Source of the DNA: Owenia fusiformis | Taxonomy: Eukaryota > Annelida > Polychaeta > Sabellida > Oweniidae | Reading direction: 5' to 3' | Length of the DNA stretch: 64,000 nt | Assembly: GCA_903813345.2 (NCBI GenBank) | Contig: CAIIXF020000004.1 | Span: forward strand, 4,669,525 to 4,733,524 | Part shown: piece after piece, positions 48,162 through 64,000 of the stretch | Layout: each line of letters begins with the position of its first letter | How positions within the stretch are numbered: the stretch's first letter is position 1 | Position numbers and translations under genes: made by a program | The notes under the pieces: generated by a model | What the model was told of the DNA's origin: nothing | Seen by the model: only the letters and a program-made list of their open reading frames with translations | The model's database searches: none

Positions 48162-49177
48162 CTATGCTTCCAGGTAACTAATCCAAATCTTTTCCAAATA
48201 CTGAAATGTTTTCTTTGATTGATATTTTCGCCCACTGTTTTCTCTTGGAGTTCCCTCGTTTTGAGGAACAACCGCTCTCTTGAATGGTCGATTAACATTT
48301 TCATTCCAATGCAAAATAAATAAATCAACCCTGACTTGAAATGACGTATCACCAAAGGAATGCCTTTTGGGCAGAAAAGAACGCAAAGCATTGTTTGCCG
48401 CTTCAACGTAACTTGTGCTAAGTCCTTCTAGTACGAGATGCGGATTTTTGTATATTGAAGTGTCATGGACAAATTTCGATAAGAGGTCAATTGCAATTGG
48501 ATCAGTAAGGAGCACACGAGATGGGGCATATCTTGGGTTTCTTACACAATGGCTCGTAAGCCTGCAACTTTCGTGGTATCCTTGGTAATGTGACACGATC
48601 GCATCTAGACTGCCTCGTAGTAGAGTCTCATCATTTCCTGAGTGCATGATGGAGTACCATATGTGGTTTTTAATTCCATCATATTTATCAAATAGCTGAC
48701 CATGCCAACATATATTTTCAGTTTTCTTTGTCCCTTTCGAAATTTTTTTGAAAGATGACATAACATTTTTAATCACATGCCAAACGTCTTTTTGTTCCTT
48801 TACTTCTGGAAAATCGTCTTTTACTACCTTGCTCACGCTATTGTTAGAATCGTGCACGATGCAACGAACTTTAATTCCTTCCTGTTTGAAATCATTTAGA
48901 ATTTCCTTTGTTGCAATCGTTTCATGTCGTTGGACAGAACTGTCATCGTGATTTGTTGATTTCACCTTATCTGCCAATACAGTATGCGTTTCGTTGCAAA
49001 GGCCAAATGTTATACTCCTCTTGGCATTGCGGAATGCAGAAAAACACGCATCGGTTTCCATGGTTATCCCAGACGCCCCACTGTCTGCTAAACTATTTTG
49101 TATCGCTCTTTCTTTAGACGCTTTGGCTTCGTTGGATATAATCGTAGATAAACGATTGCATGTTTCATTATAAACAC
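48162..49177 (-). pseudogene. DDE-type (Mutator-like) transposase, C-terminal part, disrupted
   Basis: The open frame runs from VYNETCNRLSTII at the break to SYLEA at 48,162. Likely catalytic residues are the Asp in ITMETDACFSA, the Asp in CIVHDSNNSVS, and the Glu in YVEAANNALRSF; DVWHVIKNV follows the second Asp, as in Mutator-like transposases common in invertebrates. The conventional first Met (49,199) is an artefact: its first seven or eight codons come from the terminal repeat of the 14.7-kb insert that broke the gene. The N-terminal part continues in the same frame at 63,894-64,000. Family assignment by pattern only. Confidence 0.7.
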
Positions 49178-49224
49178 CCCAGCAAACAGTGACGTCCATG
49201 TAACGTCACTCATATGTGGTATAT

Positions 49225-51110
49225 AAGTTCACTGAAGACGTTGTATATTTCCGTTATATAAACGTCAAAGCAACGTAAAATTGTGACATTCAGCAAAACG
49301 TCGGTGGATGGTTAAAAAATGACGTTGTAGTAATGTGTTAGTAAAGTTCGAAATTTGTGCTGGTGTGAAAAACGTAACAATGACGTTGAATTTTTACCAG
49401 TTTGGTTCATTTGCAACGTAATATAAACGGTAAAATTTAACGTTGTCGTAACGTTTTTTAAATGTGTAAAATATTTGTAAGTGCAGGAAACATTACAAAG
49501 ACGTTGCAGTTCTCACCAAATTGTTTCATTTGCTACGTAATATAAACGGTAAAATTTGACGTTGTCGTAACGTGTTTTAAATGTGAAAGATATTTGTAAG
49601 TGTAGAAAACGTTACAAAGACGTTGTGTTCTCACAAAATTTGGTACATTTGCAACGTAATGTAAACGGTAAAATTTGACGTTGTCGTAACGTGTTTTAAA
49701 AGTGAAAGATATTTGTAAGTGTAGAAAACGTTACAAAGACGTTGCACTTCTCTCCAAATTGTTTCATTTGCTACGTAATGTAAACGGTAAAATTTGACGT
49801 TGTCGTAACGTTTTTTAAATGTGAAAGATATTTGTAAGTGTAGAAAACGTTACAAAGACGTTGCACTTCTCACCAAATTGTTTCATTTGCTACGTAATAT
49901 AAACGGTAAAATTTGACGTTGTCGTAACGTGTTTTAAATGTGAAAGATATTTGTAAGTGTAGAAAACGTTACAAAGACGTTGTGTTCTCACCAAATTTGG
50001 TACATTTGCTACGTAATGTAAACGGTAAAATTTGACGTTGTCGTAACGTGTTTTAAACGTGAAAGATATTTGTAAGTGTAGAAAACGTTACAAAGACGTT
50101 GCACTTCTCACCAAATTGTTTCATTTGCTACGTAATGTAAACGGTAAAATTTGATGTTGTCGTAACGTGTTCTAAATGTGAAAGATATTTGTAAGTGTAA
50201 AAAACGTTACAAAGACGTTGTGTTCTCACCAAATTTGGTACATTTGATACGTAATGTAAACGGTAAAATTTGACGTTGTCGTAACGTGTTTTAAATGTGA
50301 AAGATAATTGTAAGTGTAGAAAACGTTACAAAGACGTTGCACTTCTCACCAAATTGTTTCATTTGCTACGTAATATAAACGGTAAAATTTGATGTTGTCG
50401 TAACGTGTTCTAAATGTGAAAGATATTTGTAAGTGTAAAAAACGTTACAAAGACGTTGCGTTCTCACCAAATTTGGTACATTTGCTACGTAATGTAAACG
50501 GTAAAATTTGACGTTGTCGTAACGTACGTGTTTTAAATGTGAAAGATATTTGTAAGTGTAGAAAACGTTACAAAGACGTTGCAGTTCTCACCAAATTGTT
50601 TCATTTGCTACGTAATATAAACAGTAAAATTTGACGTTGTCGTAACGTGTTTTAAATGTGAAAGATAATTGTAAGTCTAGGAAACGTTACAAAGTCCTTG
50701 TTTTCCCACCAAATTGGTTCATTTGCAACGTAGTGAAAATGGCTAATTGTAACGTTGTCAAAACATGGTTTGAATGTGAAAAATATTTGTGATTGTAAAA
50801 CACGTTACAAAGACGTCATTTTCTGACCAAAATGGTTCATTTTCAACGTAGTGCAAACGGTTAATTTCAACGTTGTCGAAACGTGTTTTCAATTGAAATG
50901 TAAAAAAATATTTGTAAGTGCAGGAAACGGTTACAAAAAGACGCTATGTCCTCACGAAATTGGTTTATTTGCAACGTTGTCGAAACGGTTAATTTTGACG
51001 TTGACGAAACGGGTTTTAAACGTGAAAAATATATATACATGTATGTGAAAAAGAACGTGACAAAGACGTTGTGGTCTCAACAAATTCGTTTAATTTGTGA
51101 CGTGAAGTAA
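49225..51110 (+). repeat. 119-bp tandem array, left end of the insertion
   Basis: CGTTGTCGTAACG recurs at 49,441, 49,560, 49,679, 49,798, 49,917, 50,036, 50,155, 50,274, 50,393 and 50,512, always 119 apart; one later unit has a 4-base gain (CGTACGTG at ~50,525). Flanking copies degrade towards both edges. Two unit types alternate: X with TTGCACTTCTCACCAAATTG and Y with TTGTGTTCTCACCAAATTTG. No spacer or coding structure. Confidence 0.95.
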
Positions 51111-51359
51111 ATGTTAAATATATAACGAATATACATGTATGCCTCGAGTGGTGGTAACTTTAAATACTGATCGGTGGAGGCACAGGCATATGTTGGCTCA
51201 CACAGATGAACTTAACGTGGTAATTGAGAGTGAGAGTGGAAATATGATGTAAAGAAAACGTTTCTCCGACGTTGTAATTTTGCCATGGGTTATTGCTGAC
51301 AAAAGTCTGACGTTCTGTCCCGGGGGGTTCACTCCAATATACCTCTTAATACCTATGTG

Positions 51360-51530
51360 CCGCGCCAAAGACCCCCTTTTTGAGCATTTTTCCATGTCAA
51401 TTTCCTCTCAAAATTGGAAGTTTCCATGTATTATTCCTCTCAGAGTTATAAAATTCCATATTTTCTTCCTCTGAACTTCATAGATGTCCATGTCTACTTC
51501 CTCTGGAGCTTGCCGGGACTAAAGTTGCGA
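51360..51530 (+). repeat. Interspersed repeat, related to 22,910-23,065
   Basis: Shares TCAATTTCCTCTCAA, TGTCCATGT and CTCTCAGAGTTATA in order with the copy in receptor intron 3. The plus-strand frames across it are not gene-like. Confidence 0.5.
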
Positions 51531-51740
51531 ATTATCGGTAAATTGACTAAAACTCCACTCTTCCGGCGATTTGTCAGACCTCGGGACAAAAATTTTCGGT
51601 TTTAGTCCCTTTCAACAAGGGCGAGCGTTACAAACGGAAAGTACATCGTTCGCAAATTTGATGTATTTCTCGTTCGGCTTTTTATCGTATTCTGTTCTAT
51701 CAACCAATAGAAATAGAGGAATTCCCGCGTCGAAATCAAC

Positions 51741-51813
51741 ATGGAGGACAGTTCCAAGTTCAAGATATTGCTGCTTAAAAGCAACTTGGGAGCCGTACTG
51801 CCAGCTTTCGAAG
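51741..51813 (+). CDS. Putative first coding exon inside the insertion, function unknown
   Basis: ATGGAGGACAGTTCC opens 24 codons (MEDSSKFKILLLKSNLGAVL then PAFE) ending at a strong donor GAAG/GTAAGAAT. Upstream, an ATCAACCAATAG (CCAAT box) lies about 40 bp before the ATG in a locally GC-richer stretch, like a promoter. The residues could start a SAM-like helix bundle, but that is a guess. A phase-compatible acceptor occurs at 54,598 (TTTTCAG/AAGTAGGAG), whose frame closes after 13 codons. Confidence 0.35.
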
Positions 51814-52282
51814 GTAAGAATGATGCATTTATGTTACACAATCACCAAAGGTTAAGATGAAAGCATTCCATGGCCGGTACTTGCAGCGAGAACACAAATA
51901 ATCTCATGTGAAAGTTGGGATCGTTTCAATTTTCATAATTTTTCAATTTTTGAAATGAACTTTTGAATATTCTGATATTTGAATCGATGTTTTTGATTTT
52001 CAATTTCATCACGATTTCAATCATAATTCCCGGTTCATAATTTTCGTTAGGTCAATTACAAGGGGTCCAGGGGTCAATTAACCATCAGCGACTTTGAAGT
52101 CAGATCCGGCCCCGGGGATCTGGCGCAGAGGTGTGGATTGGATGGTGAAGTGTTTATGGCAAATGGTTTATGCAGTTATCTTAATCTTGATGGTGATCTC
52201 TGTTAGATCATCTACCTCTTTCAAAGAATAGACATTGCCCGGGGAGTCAGTGATTGCCATCTTTAGCCTGATAGATAATCAT

Positions 52283-53335
52283 GATGGCAGAAATACAGAA
52301 ATGCACAAACATGTATCAGTTTCATATGCTTTAGAAAATGTACACGTTTGCGAACAAATAGTTCAGAAGACAATAGAATCGTCGATTTAATTCCTCACTT
52401 AAGTTACATAAACGGTGTTTCGAAAAACAGTTAAGGTCTGCACTTTTAAGGTAACTTATAACTTAATCAAAAAATCCAAGATGGCCGAAACCAGGAAGCA
52501 CATGGCATTTGAGTATAATCTGACCATCAAAATTAACTGTCTTTTGGTTGGATTTTCTCTCAATTTTTTTAGTTCCACTTATCATTTATATAACCAGGCT
52601 CACTGTGGTAATGCAAATAGAAACAGTAAGCATTCTGGAATGGGAATTTGAGTCCTCTGAAAATGTGACAGAAAAATTGACAAAAACAGTAGCACGGCAA
52701 AGGTCCCTGAACATTTTTTTTCTAATTTCTCTGAAACATCCCTTTAATATAGCACAAAATGGAAGGAGCTTTAGAATTTTGAAATCTCTCATACAAATTT
52801 AAAAAAATAGAAAAAAAACAATTTGAGAAGTGTACTTTTTTCCTTATTTTGATCCCAATTTTTTTATCGGGTAATTTTTCAAATTTCTGTTGCTCCTTCT
52901 TTTTTCATATATGTTTGAAGTATATTTTCTGAAATGTTCAGATATTTTGAATCAGTTGTTTTTCATGGGCTACTCCTAGAAAAAAATCTTCTCAAATTCT
53001 TTAAACGGCACTTTTTTTCTCAAACTAAAGTTTTTTGTTGTTCTTTGATATCTTTGTAATGATTACACTGCACAAGCATATGTGAAATAACAAAAACGAC
53101 TTCTCAGGAAGAGTTTGAAAATTTCAAGATTGTGAAATTTTCAATTTTTTCTGAAAATCGATTAAGTTAACAGTCACCTTAACCCGAACCGTTTGTGTAA
53201 CCTAAGTGAGGAATTAAATCGATGATTCTGTTGTCTTCTGAGCTATGCCTATTTTTCGCAAACATGTTCATCTTCTAAAACATATGATGCTGATACATGT
53301 TTGTGAGAAAAAATGTCGTGGGGATTCTGCCTACA
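52283..53335. mobile_element. ~1.05-kb element with ~170-bp inverted ends
   Basis: CACAAACATGTATCAG, CATATG, GTTTGCGAA, GAAGACAATAGAATC, AATTCCTCACTTA and GGTTAAGGT-like blocks of the left arm (52,283-52,465) recur in reverse order and orientation in the right arm (53,150-53,335). The centre is A/T-rich with no coding frame. Confidence 0.75.
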
Positions 53336-54157
53336 ATGCGTGAAATAAGGAAAAAAGAAAAATCGTACCTTCGACGTTCCGACATTTTGTTACCAAAACG
53401 AACCGTTTCGGTAACCAGTGTAATCGAGTGGATCACCAGTGAATAGATAGCATACTATATTTAGGGAGTTCTTTAATTTTTTTGAAAATAACATGGCAGA
53501 GAAGCATTGAAATATGAGGCCACAGATATGATAGCTAAACTACAAAACAAATAAACAAAAGTAAGAACATGTATAAATGTTTCTATTTTTACATGTTCTG
53601 TTTCAATGTGGTCCTTTAATTGCTTATTTTTTAGATTCAGAGAAGTTCCAAACATTCAAAATTTTACTGTAATCTCATCTACTCTACGACCCCCACTTAA
53701 ATTTGTAAAAAACATAAGTGGGGGTAACCAAACTCGTCTGGCCCTGTTATCCACTCCCTGATTCTGAAATGTCGTAGACCAACAACGTCAGGCGTAGATT
53801 ACTGGGCCATACAGGTTTTGTTAAAGTGGGGGTAGAATGCGATAAATCGCATGATGTATGGTCTCTCTAAAATTCTCTTATTTTTAACATGGGAAATCGT
53901 CACTTCAGCAAATTCACATGTCATTTATTTATGTTCCAAAATTTATTTAGGCTAGTATTAATATGTATATAACATATGCCTGGCAAAATTTTGTGAATTT
54001 AATTTAAAATCAAACATTATCCATTATGATTTAGGTTCGCCTTTGACAGTTTTTGATGTGGAAATGTGTCTGTTATTAAGCATATTAAGCATACACCCTT
54101 TACCAATTTACGGAGACTGAAAGGTGAACTTCAACCTTCCTTGAAACTGTATGATTA

Positions 54158-54350
54158 TCAGGCCCGTAGCCAGGGGGGGTTCGCAGGGTTCCCCCCCCCT
54201 GGCCAAAAATTCTTTCATGCAGTTTTCACCATTTTGAGCACTTCTCAAGTGATTTTGTCCATATTTGGTCCAAAATTGTCAAATGTGAACCCCCCCCCTT
54301 GAAATTTTTGAAAAATGAACCCCCTTGGCAAATCCTGGCTACGGGCCTGA
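54158..54350. mobile_element. PIF/Harbinger-like MITE, 193 bp
   Basis: A perfect 17-bp inverted end, TCAGGCCCGTAGCCAGG / CCTGGCTACGGGCCTGA, with TTA on both sides (54,155-54,157 and 54,351-54,353). A 3-bp TWA duplication is typical of PIF/Harbinger. Contains C and G homopolymers. Confidence 0.8.
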
Positions 54351-54539
54351 TTATTGATATTTATATTTTTTAATCGAAATGGTGTTTGTTATAAGCACAC
54401 GCCTTTTAACAATTGATAGAGACTGAAAAGTGTATTTCATCTTCATCAAATCTGAAATTTAGCTTTGTTTTTATTGATTGAATTCAGTAAAAGTTAATTT
54501 CTTTTAACTTAAGTTAACTTTTATCAGCCTTTAAAAAGA

Positions 54540-55185
54540 CTACTATTGTCATCTGTTTTTCCATCTTAGTGTACAATAGTTCTCTACTCTGTTTTCAGAA
54601 GTAGGAGATGAACCAGATTTTTGTAGCTTTCATCCATGATAACCCTGAGACCTTGTTGGTTGTGTTTAGATGATGGTGTTTCATACTAATCAGGTATATT
54701 ATTTCATCGTTTGATTTAATTAACTTGCATCATTTGTGGCTCCTTGCTTCAGAAATTATTCATTTGTATTTAATGCAGTTATTATTTAACTTTCACAGTT
54801 TCGCAGCAAATGAGATACTGTAAATTGCTTTAATTTGGTGCTATTTAATTTGGCGCACTGTGCAAATTTTAAAAGTATGACTGCTATATAATTAAGTTCT
54901 TTTAAAAGGTTTGAACTTAATCCTGATTGACACAATGTTAAAACATCTCAGTAGATTTACTCATCATATTCACAATTTAAAGGTCTTATCTTAATCAATA
55001 CAATTTGAAATAAAAATATAAAATAAAGTAACAGTCTTTTAAAGTACTACTATTGTCCTCTATTTTCCCATCTACCTATTCTGTTTTCAGGATTGTTGTA
55101 GCCTTCACCCATGATAACCCTGAGATGATTTTGGCTGTGTTGAGATGAGTGGTGTTATGCTAATCAGGTAGGCCTATATTATTTC
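54540..55185 (+). repeat. Duplicated exon-like module
   Basis: 54,540-54,715 and 55,040-55,185 are diverged copies with the same order: CTACTATTGTC, CCATCT, a polypyrimidine tract ending CTGTTTTCAG, TTGTAGC, CCATGATAACCCTGAGA, GGCTGTGTT/GGTTGTGTT, GATG, CTAATCAG/GTA. Each module looks like acceptor-exon-donor (CAG ... CAG/GTATA and CAG/GTAGG). Reading frames are short, so the exons would be noncoding or decayed. Confidence 0.6.
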
Positions 55186-55439
55186 TAGAGGTGTCACACT
55201 GACCCGAAGTTGACCTGCCATATTTTATCTCAGAAAGTTAAGAGTCATTCTCAGGTATCTACTTTCCTACCGTTCCAACATTTCAAATTATTATCCAATA
55301 GAATATTTTAATAAATAGATCTCTAGTTAGATCATTGGATGAAGATTATGAGAGTCAACGAAGGAATGTTTTGGCTATATGATTCTACTGTAAAAATACA
55401 AAAGGATAGTACAAAAAGCTACTAGGGATCTATAAACAG

Positions 55440-56255
55440 ATGAGCTTAGGGATTGTTTTACCCCAGAGTAGTCCCAAAAAGTCTCCTGAGACAAAGATCA
55501 GATCTGGTGGAAGAAAGATTACACCCTCAGGTGCATTTTCAGATAACCAACTAATAAAATGTTTATACTACAAGTCTCTAAAATATTTCAGACAAACTAG
55601 CAGTACAAGCAGAATGGAACATTTGACGGTTTGGAAGTTATGCAGTCTAGAGTCCTCTGAGCTTGGGGAGTTGCGAGGAAAGTGACTTCGGTAAGTCCAG
55701 GTTAATCTATTATTCATTATAGAAGTATTTTATATATATTAAGTTTACAGCAGAATCAAATCTAGCAAGATCCTTGTCATTCTATTCTAAAAATATTTAC
55801 TTTACTTCAGGAATACTAGAGAATTTTACCAAAGCATTTTACAATTATGTATTTTATTTTATATATATGGCTTCCATATTTATATTTGGAAGAATTAAAA
55901 AATTTTCCCTATTTTCGCACTTTTAATCCTCAATAACTTACTGATTTACAACACATTGTAGACCTTTGAGACATATTGTATCTGAGATTGTAAAGAATAG
56001 ATCGCTAGGTCAATTTTGGTTGAAAATGACACTGACTTACATTTGACTTAAATATATACAGAGTGGGTGTGGGTATACAGGTTACATTTCATACTTTTCA
56101 ATAGATTGATTTTTTCCAGGAAAATGTCCAAAAACAAGCAGAAATGGCAATGTGTTAAACATGCAATCAGGGAAACAACGACTGAGCTGTACAAGTCATT
56201 TGAAGAAACATTTGGAAAGTGATGAGGACCAATGAGAGCTCATGCTTTCAAGGAA
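55440..56255 (+). pseudogene. Two exon-like segments, second with a BED/zinc-finger-like tail
   Basis: A first segment (open frame 55,440-55,685) ends near a donor CTTCG/GTAAGTCC at ~55,690. A second begins after TTTTTTCCAG at ~56,120. If spliced, one frame across the join gives KCPKTSRN, a basic stretch, then CTSHLKKHLESDEDQ and a stop. HLKKH and the spaced cysteines resemble a BED-type zinc finger of transposon proteins. The other frame of the second segment starts MSKNKQKWQC. The segments do not fit together in a single long frame, so a decayed gene is likelier than a live one. Confidence 0.3.
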
Positions 56256-58833
56256 AAATGAACACTTAGCATAAACAATATCTGTTCCGAGAAGCAAGCC
56301 AGTTTGAATTCAATTTTTATCTCTATAACAAGTAACGGGACAGTACTTTTAAGATTGCATAGATATAATGGCTTCATATCTGAAACATGCAATTTTTCTA
56401 GATTTATTCCCAACTTAAAATGGTCATTATTGCTTTTTGAAAATCAATACCATGTTAATAGGGTGGTGGCATGATTTTTTCAAGTACAATATATCCACTA
56501 GTTAAAGTGCAAGTTGTGTAGGCCTTGGCTGTGTGATCAAAATGAGCCCAAGATGATCAAATTTGGTCAAAGCGTTCAAAAGTTACAGCATTTTAAAGAT
56601 CTGAAATTCGCGATTCCTTTCGTCGAAAATTGAATAAATTATGCTAATGAGCTCATTAGCATATTTCACTTATAGATAAAAAGAATAAATATTATTCTAA
56701 GATTAGAAATATTTCAGATACCTAGAGAGAAAAAGTTGTGTGATAGGAAAAATAATGAATCATGTCCAAGAAAACATGTAAATTAGAGATACAGATGCCC
56801 AAATATGGCTAACAGAGCCAAATTTCACTCCGATTTCTGGTAAAATTTGGACAAAATTGGCATTTTTTGTTCCTACACCCATATTTCTGAATCAATTTTA
56901 CAGAAAATAATGTACTTAGTTGGTTGCATACTATTTTATTTCTGTCAAACCATATTTCTTCTCTAGATAAAAGTAATAAAATGCTTGATCTGATCAAAAA
57001 ATTTCCCCAAAAAAGTTATTTGAAAGGTCTCACCAGTACAAAATATCCATATTTAGCCACTTTTTTCACCTATTTCATGATCATCACCAATGTTGATAGG
57101 CCTCTATTTTTAAAAATCAGTAAATATCACATCTGCTATTCTAAATTTCCCCATAACTATTTTTTCTGTGAACATGTGTATGCTCAAACAGCCTCTTTAT
57201 GCCATATTTTCTTCGAAAAAAGGCTCTGAAGTATGCTAGGAAAACATATTTTCACACAAATTCTAGGTGGAAATAAGCCCAGAGAGGCCATTTTGTAGTA
57301 AAATATGTCTAAAAATACATAATCTAGACATCTTGCACCTATTTGTAACCATGAAAAATATTATCATATCCACACAGATTCAATATAAAGTACTATATAT
57401 TTTTAATTCCTGCTATATAATGATTCAAACATAGCCAGTAGTCAAAAAGTGCGCTCCCTTGGCGGGATTTTGGGGTAGGGCGATTATTGAAAAACCAAAA
57501 ATGACAATAACTTTGCCAAAAATGGATGAATTTGCATAATTTTTTTTTTAAAATGCTCAGTAAAGAAATTGTAATCTTTCTCTTTCTTTCAATTTAATCA
57601 ATGTGGACTTATTATTCATCAAATAATTATTTTCAATCTTCAGAGGACCCATTTTTAAGGATTTGGGGGTAGGGCAATCACTGAAAACCACAAATAACAA
57701 TAAGTTCACCAAATATGAAGACATTACTGTATTAATTAGTCACTGTATTAATACATGTAATATGTTGGATTTTCAGTTAATTACATTTTTAAAATGTGTC
57801 CATTAATTTACATTTTTAAAATAAAAACCGTGTTCAATCGACAGTCATGTATGTATTTCTCCATTGCAGCTTCCTAGTCGGAGTAGTCCTATTCACCTTC
57901 AATAGTTGTTCCACTGTACATTTTGTCAGCTATTGTCCAATGTTAGGGACTGAAATCATAAAAAAAGTAGTTTAATTACTACTATAGTATTTCAAATTCT
58001 TAAAGAATTTCAGAAGATATCTTTAAAACCTTTTTTGATTGACACTGTATTTAAGCATAGAAATTGTTTACTTTACTACCACTGTAGTGCTCCCTAAATT
58101 ACTCTCATTAGACATTACTCTCTAGATATTCTCATACATCATAAATGATAAATGTTCACTTTTATTGCGAAGAAGAAAATTGATGTACATCATTATATTG
58201 ATTGGAATTATTACTCAATAATAATCCTATTCAATCACTAATCATATGTACATATTGATCAAATGTTATAACAGAAACAACAAAGAAATAAAAACAATAA
58301 CCAACACAATTACGAGAGCGAAGAAACTGTTAACAGACAGGCATATCATGAAAATGTACATAATATCTTTGTTATGGTCCGCGGCATTTTAGAAAGTCAA
58401 TCATTTATACATTACAATACATTTTCAGTCAATTCCAATCTGTTTTTTAATCTAAACCATAAATGTACAAATGCAATAAAACCAAGGCCTTTGAGAAATT
58501 TGGCCAAATTCAACATGGACTAACCAAATTGATCAAATATGTTGTCTCTTGGAAGGGCACTATGATTAGCTGGCATAACTGGGGGAGAAGGGGTGCATGT
58601 ACCTACTAGTAATTCATTTCATGCTACTAGAAAATTTACAAACCTTTATGTAGTTTGATGTTATTGTAGATCTTGTTTACTTGTATAATGCTTATGTCTC
58701 ACAGTCTGATTGTCTGTATTTCTATAAAGTAAGAGGGGAAAATGTATTCTACGCATGTATTTTTTATGGATTACTTCTTACACTGTGACAAGGCAGGCTA
58801 TTATAAGACAAATAATCTGGGTACAATCCGAAA
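56256..58833. other. Central insertion sequence, nothing recognised
   Basis: AT-rich. Several short frames (e.g. 56,924-57,229) lack motifs. Two similar blocks with GGGGTAGGGCRAT(T/C)A(T/C)TGAAAA occur at ~57,470 and ~57,660, a faint direct repeat. No gene assigned. Confidence 0.4.
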
Positions 58834-58839
58834 GAATTG

Positions 58840-59000
58840 CATGGGCGTAGCGCTATTTTAATGAGTAGTACGCCAACTCGGAAACATAAGTTCAGGGAGG
58901 TCCGGGGGTTCTCCCCCAGGAATATGTGGGAACTTGGTTGTATTTTGGAGCATATTTGCAATCGTCTGGTATGCTTGTGCGTACCAGGTGCTACGCCAAT
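58840..59000. mobile_element. 161-bp MITE with GAATTG flanks
   Basis: CATGGGCGTAGCGC at the left mirrors GTGCTACGCCAAT at the right; GAATTG lies on both sides (58,834-58,839 and 59,001-59,006) as a likely 6-bp target duplication. The middle has GGTCCGGGGGTTCTCCCCCAGG, a strong hairpin. Confidence 0.65.
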
Positions 59001-59006
59001 GAATTG

Positions 59007-60550
59007 GTGAGATTCTTTTGTTTTATAAGAGCTTGGTGCAAGACTACATGTAATACAGTGTGAGTGTACAATGTATGTATAGACTCTAGAGTAGATCTAC
59101 ATGTACTGTTGTACATGTAGGCTATGTTTGAGAAACAATAGATTCTAAAAGCTGAGTGATGTAAATGAAATGTGATTAGAATGTGATGTCAATTTTCTAC
59201 AGAAGTCGATCATGAACTGTGAGTACATGCTGCTGCAGGCATGACTTCAAAATCACGCAAAAGCAAGTGACATTTCACCTTTTCCTGGGCCTCAGATACA
59301 ACTTGTAAGCCAATTTTCAAATTGAATTCCAAAATATAACTTGTGAAATTGAACCTCATTTATCTGTTTATGAACTTTGTTTATGGCATTAGCGTTGCAA
59401 ATTGTCTAATACTTTCATCTAGAACATTTCATGATTATTATAAACCTAAATCTTATTCATACTTTATTAAAATACTTACAATTGTATCCAAAAAACATCG
59501 GAGGAATAATTTTGCTTTAGTTATGATTCAAAATGGCTTTTGGGAAACCCCTCTAGCTGATCACGTCACGTGATTGGATTCTCCGCATTCCAGTATTCTA
59601 ATTGGTTGGTTCATGGTGTGACGTCAACCAGGTCATTTGAGGTCAGATTATACATAAAAAATGGCTTGAACATAAAAATGTGTGCTGTGTTTAGGTTCCA
59701 TTCCGCACCACCAAATAGGTAGGACTCAATAAACCACTGCAATATTTGATTAGAAGACATTATTGGCTACATCAGAGTCTTTCCGTTTTTTAAAAGGACA
59801 AAACATAAGTCATGTTCCGAGGTGTGCAAACTTTTCCTTTGAATGTTTTCTTAGAAAATCATATTTTCGATCAAGAACCAGAAAAAAACGGAAAGACCAT
59901 CGTAAAGAAGAGTATATTCCGATTCAGAAAAGTATTGGTTCAAAAATTGTTGATCAGGATTAAGCGTGCGGAATTAGCATCAAAAAGGGTTGCAAAATTA
60001 ACGTTTTTCGCGGATGTTGTTATTTTTCAGGACACTAAGAAGTACGTCACAAATTTATCAAGTTTAGTTGACTGCTCACTTTCAATATGTTATTTCTCGG
60101 TCAATTCTTTTTAGAAAATTACAAAAATAAACATTCCGAGAGACAAAAAAATGCTTGTTTCATTGATATTACTTTTATTCCAAACAACACAATATTGAGG
60201 AAGTTATGGTGTGTTAAAAATGGCCCAAATGGGAAAAATACGTCATGTCAGGGCTTTCCGCGCCTATTGTCACCACCCTAATGTTAACTAATAGAGCATT
60301 TGTTCAAGCTCAAATTAGAATATTTATTCATTCCCGTTCAGAAAAGTAACAATATAACCCCTAAACAGTTAGGCTATAGATAATTACATTCATAGTAAAG
60401 GGGGTGAATAGATCTGCCGAGATCTGGGCACAATCTCGGAAATGAAATATCGAAATATCATCAAAGGTTAATCCCATACTTAGTAGTGTTATAGGTAAAT
60501 AACATGCAGGAATATAATTGATATCTGAGTTGAGCGGGAGATATATAAGG
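59007..60550. other. Insertion sequence with a promoter-like segment
   Basis: 59,560-59,640 clusters CACGTCACGTGATTGG, ATTGGTTGG (inverted CCAAT boxes) and a CRE-like TGACGTCA. Downstream frames at 59,763-59,963 and 59,812-60,114 are Lys/Arg-rich but overlap in different frames and show no domain. If a gene starts here, I cannot define it. Confidence 0.35.
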
Positions 60551-60688
60551 GTTATGTACTGGGAGGTTTTGGATACAGGTTTTATCCCAAGGGAAATATG
60601 TGTTTATCCCGAGGGACCGCAGGGACCAAGGGATATACACATATTTCCCGAGGGATAAACCCTGTATCCAAAACCGACCGTACATAAC
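60551..60688. repeat. Foldback element, 138 bp
   Basis: GTTATGTAC at the left pairs with GTACATAAC at the right; GGTTTTGGATACAGG, TTTATCCC and GGGAAATATGTGT also pair. The loop centre is GGGACCGCAGGGACC. Would form a long hairpin. Confidence 0.85.
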
Positions 60689-60970
60689 AGATGCATTTCA
60701 TACCTACTGATGTTCTTGGTACGTCATATACCTTATAAAGTTCCAAAATTCAAAAATATACTTAAGATACACATTTTCTTGGTGTTATAAAGTGGTTTTT
60801 TAAGTTTCTGAGATTATCAAACTCATATAGCCTAACTCATATTTGTGAAAATCTTTTTTAAAAAAATGTGAAAAAAAATTTTGAAAATTAATGTGAAAAA
60901 AAATTTGGGGAAAAATGGGAAATTTCAATGCATATTTAATTCTCATAATCTACTAAGTAAAGGATAAATC

Positions 60971-61104
60971 AGTTGTTAAATGCTCGATTTTTGATACGGT
61001 GTATATCCCTCAGTAAATACAATATATCAACCTACGGTCCCTCAGGTAGATATATTGTATTTCCCTCAGATATACCCTCTATCAAAAATCTCCCATTAAA
61101 TAAC
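60971..61104. repeat. Foldback element, 134 bp
   Basis: AGTTGTTAAATG pairs with CATTAAATAACT; GATTTTTGATA, TATATCCCTCAG and AATACAATATATC pair with the right arm. The loop centre is CCTACGGTCCCTCAGG, close to that of the hairpin at 1,886-1,999. Confidence 0.85.
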
Positions 61105-61599
61105 TTCTATATATTAGGTATCATTGGAAAGGTAACAAGTATTCAACTCCCAGTATTTTGAGTTTTCTTATAACTATATTGAGCCATTATTAATGAAGAA
61201 ATTCATATTTTAAAAACATAGGGGTTTATCATTTCTTAGGGGGGGGTTAATCACAATTTATTAGTTAATATATGCCTAATTCAATTTTAAGACAAGCCAG
61301 AACGGCAAATCTGCCCACCCCCTTAACCGTTTAGGGGTTAATAAAATACTTAATAAAACTTATTAACGATAGGATAGATTTTTGATAGATGACATACGAG
61401 ACTGTAATTATATTTAAGTTCAATTCTGTGTGTCAATATTCTCTATTTGGATGCTCAAAAAAGTTATTGTGTATTAACTCATTAATTATTGGAAAAACAA
61501 TATACATTTGTTAATAAGTCAAAGCATAAGTTAGTTGTGTTTTACCTTCACATGTGAAAATGTTAGGCTTAGTGTGTTATATATAATTTTACTGAACAT
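61105..61599. other. Insertion sequence before the right array
   Basis: AT-rich, with a G run at ~61,240. No feature recognised. Confidence 0.35.
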
Positions 61600-63838
61600 C
61601 GGTGTCTACATCTTCCTGTACAGGAACTTTAAATTATGTTCATGTAATGATTCATTTAACTGGACGTTAGTCATTACTATCACTATATCTTGTTGATGGC
61701 ATAATTAAGGTTACTAGAACATTCCTTGCATGTGTTGTCCTAACTTGATGTAACCAGAAGTTATGAATTTGCCATGTATATGACAAGCACGTTACAGTCT
61801 ATTTTGGCAAAGTCGTTGTTAAGGTTGGTACTACATTCCTGGCTCGTTATATCTAAGTCGAACGTAACTTGTATACTCATTTATGCGTGTCCACACTTTC
61901 CTTTGCCTACAACGTTCTATAATTAATGTTTCCAGAACTTTAACTTGGCCACGTATATGTGACGTTGCATAAGCACGTTACAGTCTGTCATTTTATTTTT
62001 GCAGTCATTGTTAAGGTTGCTACTACATTCCTAGCACATGATATTTAAGTAAAATGTAACGTTGTATAAACATCTGTGCGAGTCAAGACCTTCCTGTGCC
62101 TACATCGGTCCAAGACAAACGTTACCAGAACTTTAAACTGGCCAGGTATATGTTACGTTGCATAACCACATTACAGTCTCACTATTTTTGCGAAGTCATT
62201 GTTAAGGTTGGTTCTACATTCCTGGCACGTGATATTTAAGTCAAATGTAACGTTCTTTAAACATCTGTGCGAGTCCACACCTTCCTGTACCTACAACGTT
62301 CCATAATTAACGTACCAGAACTTAAAACTGGCCACGTATATGTGACGTTGCATAAGCACATTACAGTCTCGTTATTTTTGCGAAGTTATCGTTTAGGTTG
62401 GTTCTACGTTCCTGGCACGTGATATTTAAGTCAAATGTAACGTTCTTTGAACATCTGTGCGAGTCCACACCTTCCTGTACCTACAACGTTCCATAATTAA
62501 CGTATCAGAAATTTAGATTGGCCACGTATTTATGACGTAATGTAAGTACGTTACATTTTCGTTATTTTAGCGAAGTCATCGTTTAGGTTGGTTCCACGTT
62601 CCTGGCACGTGATATTTAAGTCAAATGTAACGTTCTTTAAACATCTGTGCGAGTCCACACCTCCCTGTACCTACAACGTTCCATATAAACGTTACCAGAA
62701 ATTTATATTGGCCACGTATATATGACGTAATGTAAGTACGTTACATTTTCGTTATTTTGGTGACGTAATTGTTAAGGTCGCTACTACGTTCCTGACACGT
62801 GATATTTAAGTCAAATGTAACGTTCTTTAAACAGCTATGCGAGTCCACACCTTCCTGTACCTACAACGTTCCATATCAACGTTACCAGAAATTTAGATTG
62901 GCCACGTATATATGACGTAATGTAAGTACGTTACAGTTTCGTTATTTTGGCGACATTATTGTTAAGGTCGCTACTACGTTCCTGACACGTGATATTTAAG
63001 TCAAATGTAACGTTCTTTAAACATCTGTGCGAGTCCACACCTTCCTGTACCTACAACGTTCCATTTCAACGTTACCAGAAATTTAGATTGGCCACGTATT
63101 TATGACGTAATGTAAGTACGTTACATTATCGTTATTTTGGTGACGTAATTGTTAAGGTCGCTACTACGTTCCTGACACGTGATATTTAAGTCAAATGTAA
63201 CGTTCTTTAAACATCTATGCGAGTCCACACCTTCCTGTACCTACAACGTTCCATATCAACGTTACCAGAAATTTAGATTGGCCACGTATATATGACGTAA
63301 TGTAAGTACGTTACAGTTTCGTTATTTTGGCGACGTAATTGTTAAGGTCGCTACTACGTTCCTGACACGTGATATTTAAGTCAAATGTAACGTTCTTTAA
63401 ACATCTGTGCGAGTCCACACCTTCCTGTACCTACAACGTTCCATATCAACGTTACCAGAAATTTAGATTGGCCACGTATATATGACGTAATGTAAGTACG
63501 TTACATTTTCGTTATTTTGGTGACGTAATTGTTAAGGTCGCTACTACGTTCCTGACACGTGATATTTAAGTCAAATGTAACGTTCTTTAAACATCTATGC
63601 GAGTCCACACCTTCCTGTACCTACAACGTTCCATATCAACGTTACCAGAAATTTAGATTGGCCACGTATATATGACGTAATGTAAGTACGTTACAGTTTC
63701 GTTATTTTGGCGACGTTATTGTTAAGGTCGCTACTACGTTCCTGACACGTGATATTTAAGTCAAATGTAACGTTCTTTAAACATCTGTGCGAGTCCACAC
63801 CTTCCTGTACCTACAACGTTCCATATTTAACGTTGCTA
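61600..63838 (+). repeat. 190-bp tandem array with a 380-bp dimeric period
   Basis: GTGATATTTAAG recurs at 62,039 (as ATGATATTTAAG), 62,229, 62,419, 62,609, 62,799, 62,989, 63,179, 63,369, 63,559 and 63,749, always 190 apart; a more diverged unit starts at 61,846. About 11-12 units. From 62,609 on, type A (ATCTGTGCGAG, then GTTACATT, then GGTGACGT) alternates strictly with type B (ATCTATGCGAG or AGCTATGCGAG, GTTACAGTTTC, GGCGAC). Units are dense in ACGT cores. The array stops 55 bp before the insertion terminus. Confidence 0.95.
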
Positions 63839-63893
63839 CAACTTGAGACATATATTCTGACGACGTTATCACAACGTAAAATTGTTAGCTGGG

Positions 63894-64000
63894 ACGCTCG
63901 TTCGTGCTTCCTAATGTAGTAGCATTTAAAAATCTGGTGAATGGAGTATACATAAGTCCACTACAAACTACACCAAAAGCCATTTTCTCGTTCACGAAAA
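63894..64000 (-). pseudogene. DDE-type transposase, N-terminal part (continues past the window)
   Basis: The minus strand is open in one frame over all 35 codons: VNEKMAFGVVCSGL, then YTPFTRFLNATTLGSTNER, meeting the insertion. The sequence fits the N-terminal region of Mutator-like transposases, where a conserved small-residue/Gly segment precedes an LG(I/S)xxxN stretch. It is in frame with 49,177 once one AC copy is removed. Confidence 0.65.

Follow-up and report, generated by a model that had tools for sequence, protein, structure and literature searches.

Animal CACTA-related (TRC) transposons have a CCC terminal core and generate 2-bp target site duplications, as described in PMC1636069. 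According to the same source, SmTRC1 of Schistosoma mansoni has such a duplication in 7 of 14 copies and includes a tandem-repeat region, truncated copies and multiply spliced transcripts, and the Aedes TRC element is 9.2 kb long with termini CCCAGTCAAC (PMC1636069). In the red alga Chondrus crispus, enlarged En/Spm (CACTA) families are reported at 16–20 kb (PMC6431247). Here we analyse a window of 64,000 bp from the annelid Owenia fusiformis (C4:4669525-4733524), in which a large insert with CCCAGC termini interrupts a Mutator-like transposase gene, together with the relatives of this insert in the genome (498 Mb searched). The 14.7-kb block is a real transposon insertion, and the genome has dozens of such copies. 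We consider it probable that these copies form a young family of non-autonomous DNA transposons that, like animal CACTA/EnSpm (TRC) elements, most likely transpose by cut-and-paste, using a transposase provided in trans.

The original prediction placed inverted termini and a flanking AC dinucleotide around 14,716 bp of DNA, and the window sequence has all of these at those places (Table 1). The left terminal repeat, CCCAGCAAACA, and the right one read inward, CCCAGCTAACA, are identical at 10 of 11 positions. The prediction had also argued that removing the insert with one AC rejoins a split transposase frame; among the joins at offsets 0, 1 and 2 (which keep two, one-and-a-half and one AC), only the single-AC join leaves a long frame open upstream. 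The interrupted gene has 61 matches in the genome, its own locus included. Alignment of the rejoined 1,121-bp empty site with the five insert-free relatives fetched needs no gap in any of them and gives 99.2–99.4% identity; in one of them a 530-amino-acid frame reads through the insertion site. A failure of intact relatives to align across the junction, the outcome that was to refute the prediction, was not seen in any of the five. Because these empty sites are gapless in every case, the ends of the element and its 2-bp duplication are fixed at the DNA level, and the argument from the reading frame is not needed.

Both ends recur throughout the genome. The left 191 bp were found at 99–100% identity at 40 scored places (of 200 candidates), and the right 204 bp had full-length matches at 100% (rounded) at the 40 places scored of 106 candidates. 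Pairing of these scored ends gave 24 complete copies of 9.8–15.1 kb, all of which, having been selected by their ends, carry terminal inverted repeats that start with CCCAGC on both sides. Genome-wide there are 72 exact left ends and 95 right ends with up to three mismatches (13 for a reversed control). The prediction would have been undermined if the 119-bp and 190-bp array ends never occurred together elsewhere; a right end in the proper orientation lies within 45 kb of 66 of the 72 exact left ends, with a median length of 11.4 kb. Counted among the 66 are a copy of only 845 bp, a span of 42 kb and an element that has a second one nested inside it; the end positions place one family copy within another at one locus. 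Restricted to the 12 large contigs and to distances under 20 kb, pairing succeeds for 58 of 68 exact left ends, compared with a mean of 0.13 and a maximum of 3 under random placement (1,000 runs). Among seven fully read copies, the core is 96.5–99.6% identical over 4,882 gap-free columns.

The flanks of the 24 paired copies, rather than of all 66 pairs, were used to count duplications. A perfect 2-bp duplication is present in 21 of them and a 3-bp duplication in none; random pairing of left and right flanks gives a mean of 3.8 and a maximum of 11 matches (2,000 runs), which bears out the predicted duplication length. The duplicated sequence varies (TA in seven copies, AT in four, AA in three, TC in two, and GA, AC, GC, GT and TT in one each). 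A CCC terminal core and a 2-bp duplication without a fixed sequence are two features that the family has in common with animal TRC elements.

As the prediction noted, each end carries its own tandem array, with units of 119 bp on the left and 190 bp on the right. The overall sequences of the two units are unrelated, and both are dense in the motif ACGT. We counted 72 sites in 1,860 bp and 82 sites in 2,096 bp (approximately 39 per kb), for which the maxima of 200 shuffles were 46 and 38, and 3 sites in 4,970 bp of a tested core stretch (0.6 per kb). In both arrays the commonest distance between neighbouring ACGT sites is 11 bp, and in seven of seven copies both tips have two ACGT sites 11 bp apart. 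The counts overstate the evidence, because array units and family copies share descent; the agreement of two unrelated units and two tips on one motif suffers less from this. Core-to-tip lengths vary by near multiples of the array unit in six of seven copies on each side. In plants, non-autonomous En/Spm-type CACTA elements have subterminal repeated motifs that are thought to bind the transposase. The ACGT motifs are candidate transposase-binding sites.

The large size of the window copy, which the prediction had stressed, stands at 14,716 bp, and is owed in part to a nested transposon-like insert. This insertion (3,822 bp, 56459-60280) is flanked by ATGTTAA at 56452-56458 and 60281-60287; together with one 7-bp copy of ATGTTAA it accounts for 3,829 of the 14,716 bp and is absent from the six other fully read copies. 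Without it the window copy is 10,887 bp long. A six-frame Pfam scan of the nested insertion gave no match up to E 0.1; the insertion may be hAT-like.

Table 1. Layout of the window copy and the gene that it interrupts (positions in the window).
Feature	Position	Strand	Support
C-terminal part of the interrupted Mutator-like transposase gene (insertion target)	48162..49177	-	PF20700 E=3e-8
Left copy of the 2-bp target site duplication (AC)	49176..49177	.	flank comparison and empty-site alignment
Left terminal repeat, CCCAGCAAACA	49178..49188	+	
Left tip, ACGT at offsets 14 and 25	49178..49368	+	99–100% identity, 40 scored places of 200 candidates
Left subterminal tandem array, 119-bp unit, ~14 copies, ACGT-rich	49369..51032	+	
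Core without recognisable genes, common to seven fully read copies, plus copy-specific indels	51033..61799	.	
Nested insertion, 3,822 bp, ends TAGGGTGGTG/CACCACCCTA	56459..60280	.	window copy only, among seven fully read
Right subterminal tandem array, 190-bp unit, ~10.7 copies, ACGT-rich	61800..63834	+	
Right tip, ACGT at offsets 16 and 27 from the end	63835..63893	-	
Right terminal repeat, TGTTAGCTGGG (inward reading, CCCAGCTAACA)	63883..63893	-	
Right copy of the target site duplication (AC)	63894..63895	.	
Upstream coding part of the same Mutator-like transposase gene, runs off the window	63896..64000	-	empty-site alignment

The same genome also contains an element of similar build that encodes a CACTA-type transposase. 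Transposase_21 was found above the cut-off at 14 places, nine of which have identical 608-amino-acid frames. Two of these nine were extended, which gave a 14,457-bp element (C1:24231595-24246051) with ends CCCCGGCGAAA and tandem arrays; its termini are CCCCGGCG, with a CCCC start. Both ends were found for six of the nine copies (in the other three an end was not found where expected), and a 2-bp duplication is present in three of these six (AA, CG and TC). In the fetched stretches of three other Transposase_21 loci, no tandem array bears ACGT.

The prediction that the insert carries no recognised transposase held in all the parts of copies that were examined. The core holds only short reading frames, the longest of approximately 112 amino acids, and six frames over 5.5 kb of one copy's core gave no Pfam match better than E=0.19. 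Five longer copies (16.8–20.2 kb) were partly read; four copies of 22–42 kb, including a nested one, and several of 15–16 kb lie beyond this set. The extra DNA of the five mostly differs between copies; two have 0.76 kb in common at 90% identity, and two have an insert with the same starting letters at the same position in the core. For two of these five copies, the extra DNA was scanned against Pfam in six frames, with no relevant match. One long copy contains a cysteine-rich frame of 224 amino acids (L119 5184-5855, plus strand). Related frames occur at approximately a dozen further loci, which, by eye, do not coincide with listed CCCAGC ends; the 224-amino-acid frame has no Pfam or PDB match.

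Searches of the genome with other profiles added no candidate. With PF06869, no new place was seen by eye near the listed ends, and the control genomes gave none for PF02992 or PF06869. The profile of the Plavaka transposase, PF18759, had no match in the genome, and as 14 control genomes were equally silent this does not show its absence. The fungal Plavaka elements have termini given as TGT..ACA or CATCA..TGATG (PMC12730594), from which those of the CCCAGC family differ. In a text query of the literature with the terminal letters, the 20 listed of 135 matching papers looked unrelated by title.

We hypothesize that a CACTA-type transposase, supplied in trans and moving the family by cut-and-paste, would bind the repeated ACGT motifs in the tips and arrays, whose frequent 11-bp spacing is about one helical turn. 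The bound transposase may then pair the two ends and insert them with a 2-bp stagger, and the arrays may lengthen or shorten by whole units. In the window the element struck a Mutator-like transposase gene and was itself hit later by a second transposon-like element.

Several observations weigh against this reading. No transposase was recognised within the family in the copy parts examined. The distance from any of 39 Transposase_21-related places to the nearest listed CCCAGC end, measured on the 12 large contigs against exact left ends and listed right ends, is at least 98 kb, although the genome profile search reads exon by exon, gives lower bounds and does not thereby show that a transposase is absent. 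A matching 2-bp duplication is lacking in 3 of the 24 copies and in the 845-bp short copy, which is outside the 24-copy count, as well as in three of six copies of the Transposase_21 element, the ends of which have only their leading Cs in common with the CCCAGC family. The wider group that contains CACTA mostly has CA..TG termini, according to a 2025 paper (PMC12730594). Some of these points would suit a DNA transposon of an undescribed superfamily, with a transposase that is not recognised and with a CCC start and 2-bp duplications that resemble CACTA by convergence: there is no Transposase_21 relative near listed CCCAGC ends and no transposase domain in six frames of one core, and the terminal sequence and motif are unlike those of the Transposase_21 element in the same genome. 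We regard this as unlikely, given that the terminal core, the duplication length, the absence of a fixed target, the size and the tandem repeats all fit published animal CACTA elements. For the same reason no new class is needed, and the suggestion in the original prediction that the insert fits no known superfamily and may be an undescribed type gives way to the match with published animal TRC elements (PMC1636069) and to the similar element in this genome. A related and similarly doubtful idea is that an unrecognised transposase, outside known superfamilies or far from Transposase_21, mobilises the family by reading 11-bp-phased pairs of ACGT over approximately 2 kb at each end, with array length acting as a tunable enhancer of transposition.

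The family might instead be autonomous, its transposase split into exons too short to notice. SmTRC1 transcripts are multiply spliced (PMC1636069) and core frames do reach the length given above, but neither the six core frames nor the surroundings of the listed ends yielded a transposase domain or a Transposase_21 relative, and the additional DNA of the five longer copies is mostly not shared; we therefore think autonomy very improbable. An assignment to ISL2EU or a different PHIS group is harder still to credit, even though 2-bp duplications occur in some PHIS groups. The duplication length and the preference for A/T in the duplications agree with it, but ISL2EU elements have an AT duplication and termini that usually start with GG (PMC4482050), and the variable duplications of the CCCAGC family, which also include TA, AA, GC, GA, TC, AC, GT and TT, contradict it. 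We give virtually no weight to the idea that the bounded appearance comes from two unrelated repeats or from a join made in assembly. The two arrays do differ, and the bare 11-mer CCCAGCAAACA is common elsewhere (371 matches compared with 78 for a reversed control), none of 20 sampled others being a true end, so that it was rejected as a family marker; the 66 of 72 paired left ends and the five of five empty sites refute this explanation. CACTA membership of the CCCAGC family is thus likely, if unproved, and we use the labels CACTA-like and non-autonomous because the searches gave no transposase associated with CCCAGC ends. The family is new and well delimited, and is not a new type of element; we make no claim about its absence from Repbase.

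Other sequences resemble single ends of the element. The left-end search gave 198 places, of which 100 were listed. Near matches to the left end (one or two mismatches) occur at 126 places, and 27 of the 28 listed begin with TCCAGC. At the 14 near-match loci that were fetched (13 TCCAGC and 1 CACAGC), the preceding 40 bp are approximately 90–95% identical, and by eye the similarity reaches back approximately 100 bp. This near match, mostly TCCAGCAAACAGTGACGTC, was at first considered the end of a sister family, and was rejected as such because it is a left-arm relative that lies within a larger, abundant repeat. At three loci with variant right ends, the match to the family is limited to the last 41, 273 and 469 bp, and a pattern search for related ends returned two places. 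A 70-kb contig has six right ends in one orientation (C446 17075-59446), with four of five spacings at 7.5–7.8 kb; the element accounts for only approximately 0.8 kb of the single unit read, a pattern that would fit the capture of a right end by a long tandem repeat. The copy at C6:4.14 Mb contains a 642-bp insert that is bordered by TTAGTCAT on either side and is probably a further small transposon.

The CCCAGC family is young and cleanly bounded; its elements are very large and non-autonomous, and both empty sites and copies of known length are at hand. Its two dissimilar arrays with one phased motif allow a direct test of how CACTA-like transposases read long subterminal arrays, and the family also allows tests of how elements of more than 10 kb spread when they do not encode their own movement.

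Among known systems, plant CACTA elements have CACTA termini and 3-bp duplications, and in both respects the En/Spm type differs from the CCCAGC family, with which it shares subterminal repeated motifs. The 14,457-bp Transposase_21 element in the same genome is like the family in its C-run termini, large size, tandem arrays and 2-bp duplications (three of six copies), and unlike it in encoding the 608-amino-acid frame and in its arrays and remaining terminal sequence, which differ from CCCAGC and ACGT. ISL2EU has a 2-bp duplication, as here, but with a fixed AT and termini that usually begin with GG (PMC4482050). The En/Spm families of Chondrus crispus are likewise CACTA-type and well over 10 kb, but carry four or five genes (PMC6431247). 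Animal TRC elements encode Transposase_21, whereas in the CCCAGC family none was recognised and a tandem array stands at each end; SmTRC1, the Tribolium element and the Aedes element nonetheless share with it the CCC-start repeat and the 2-bp duplication, and SmTRC1 also its tandem repeats and truncated copies (PMC1636069).

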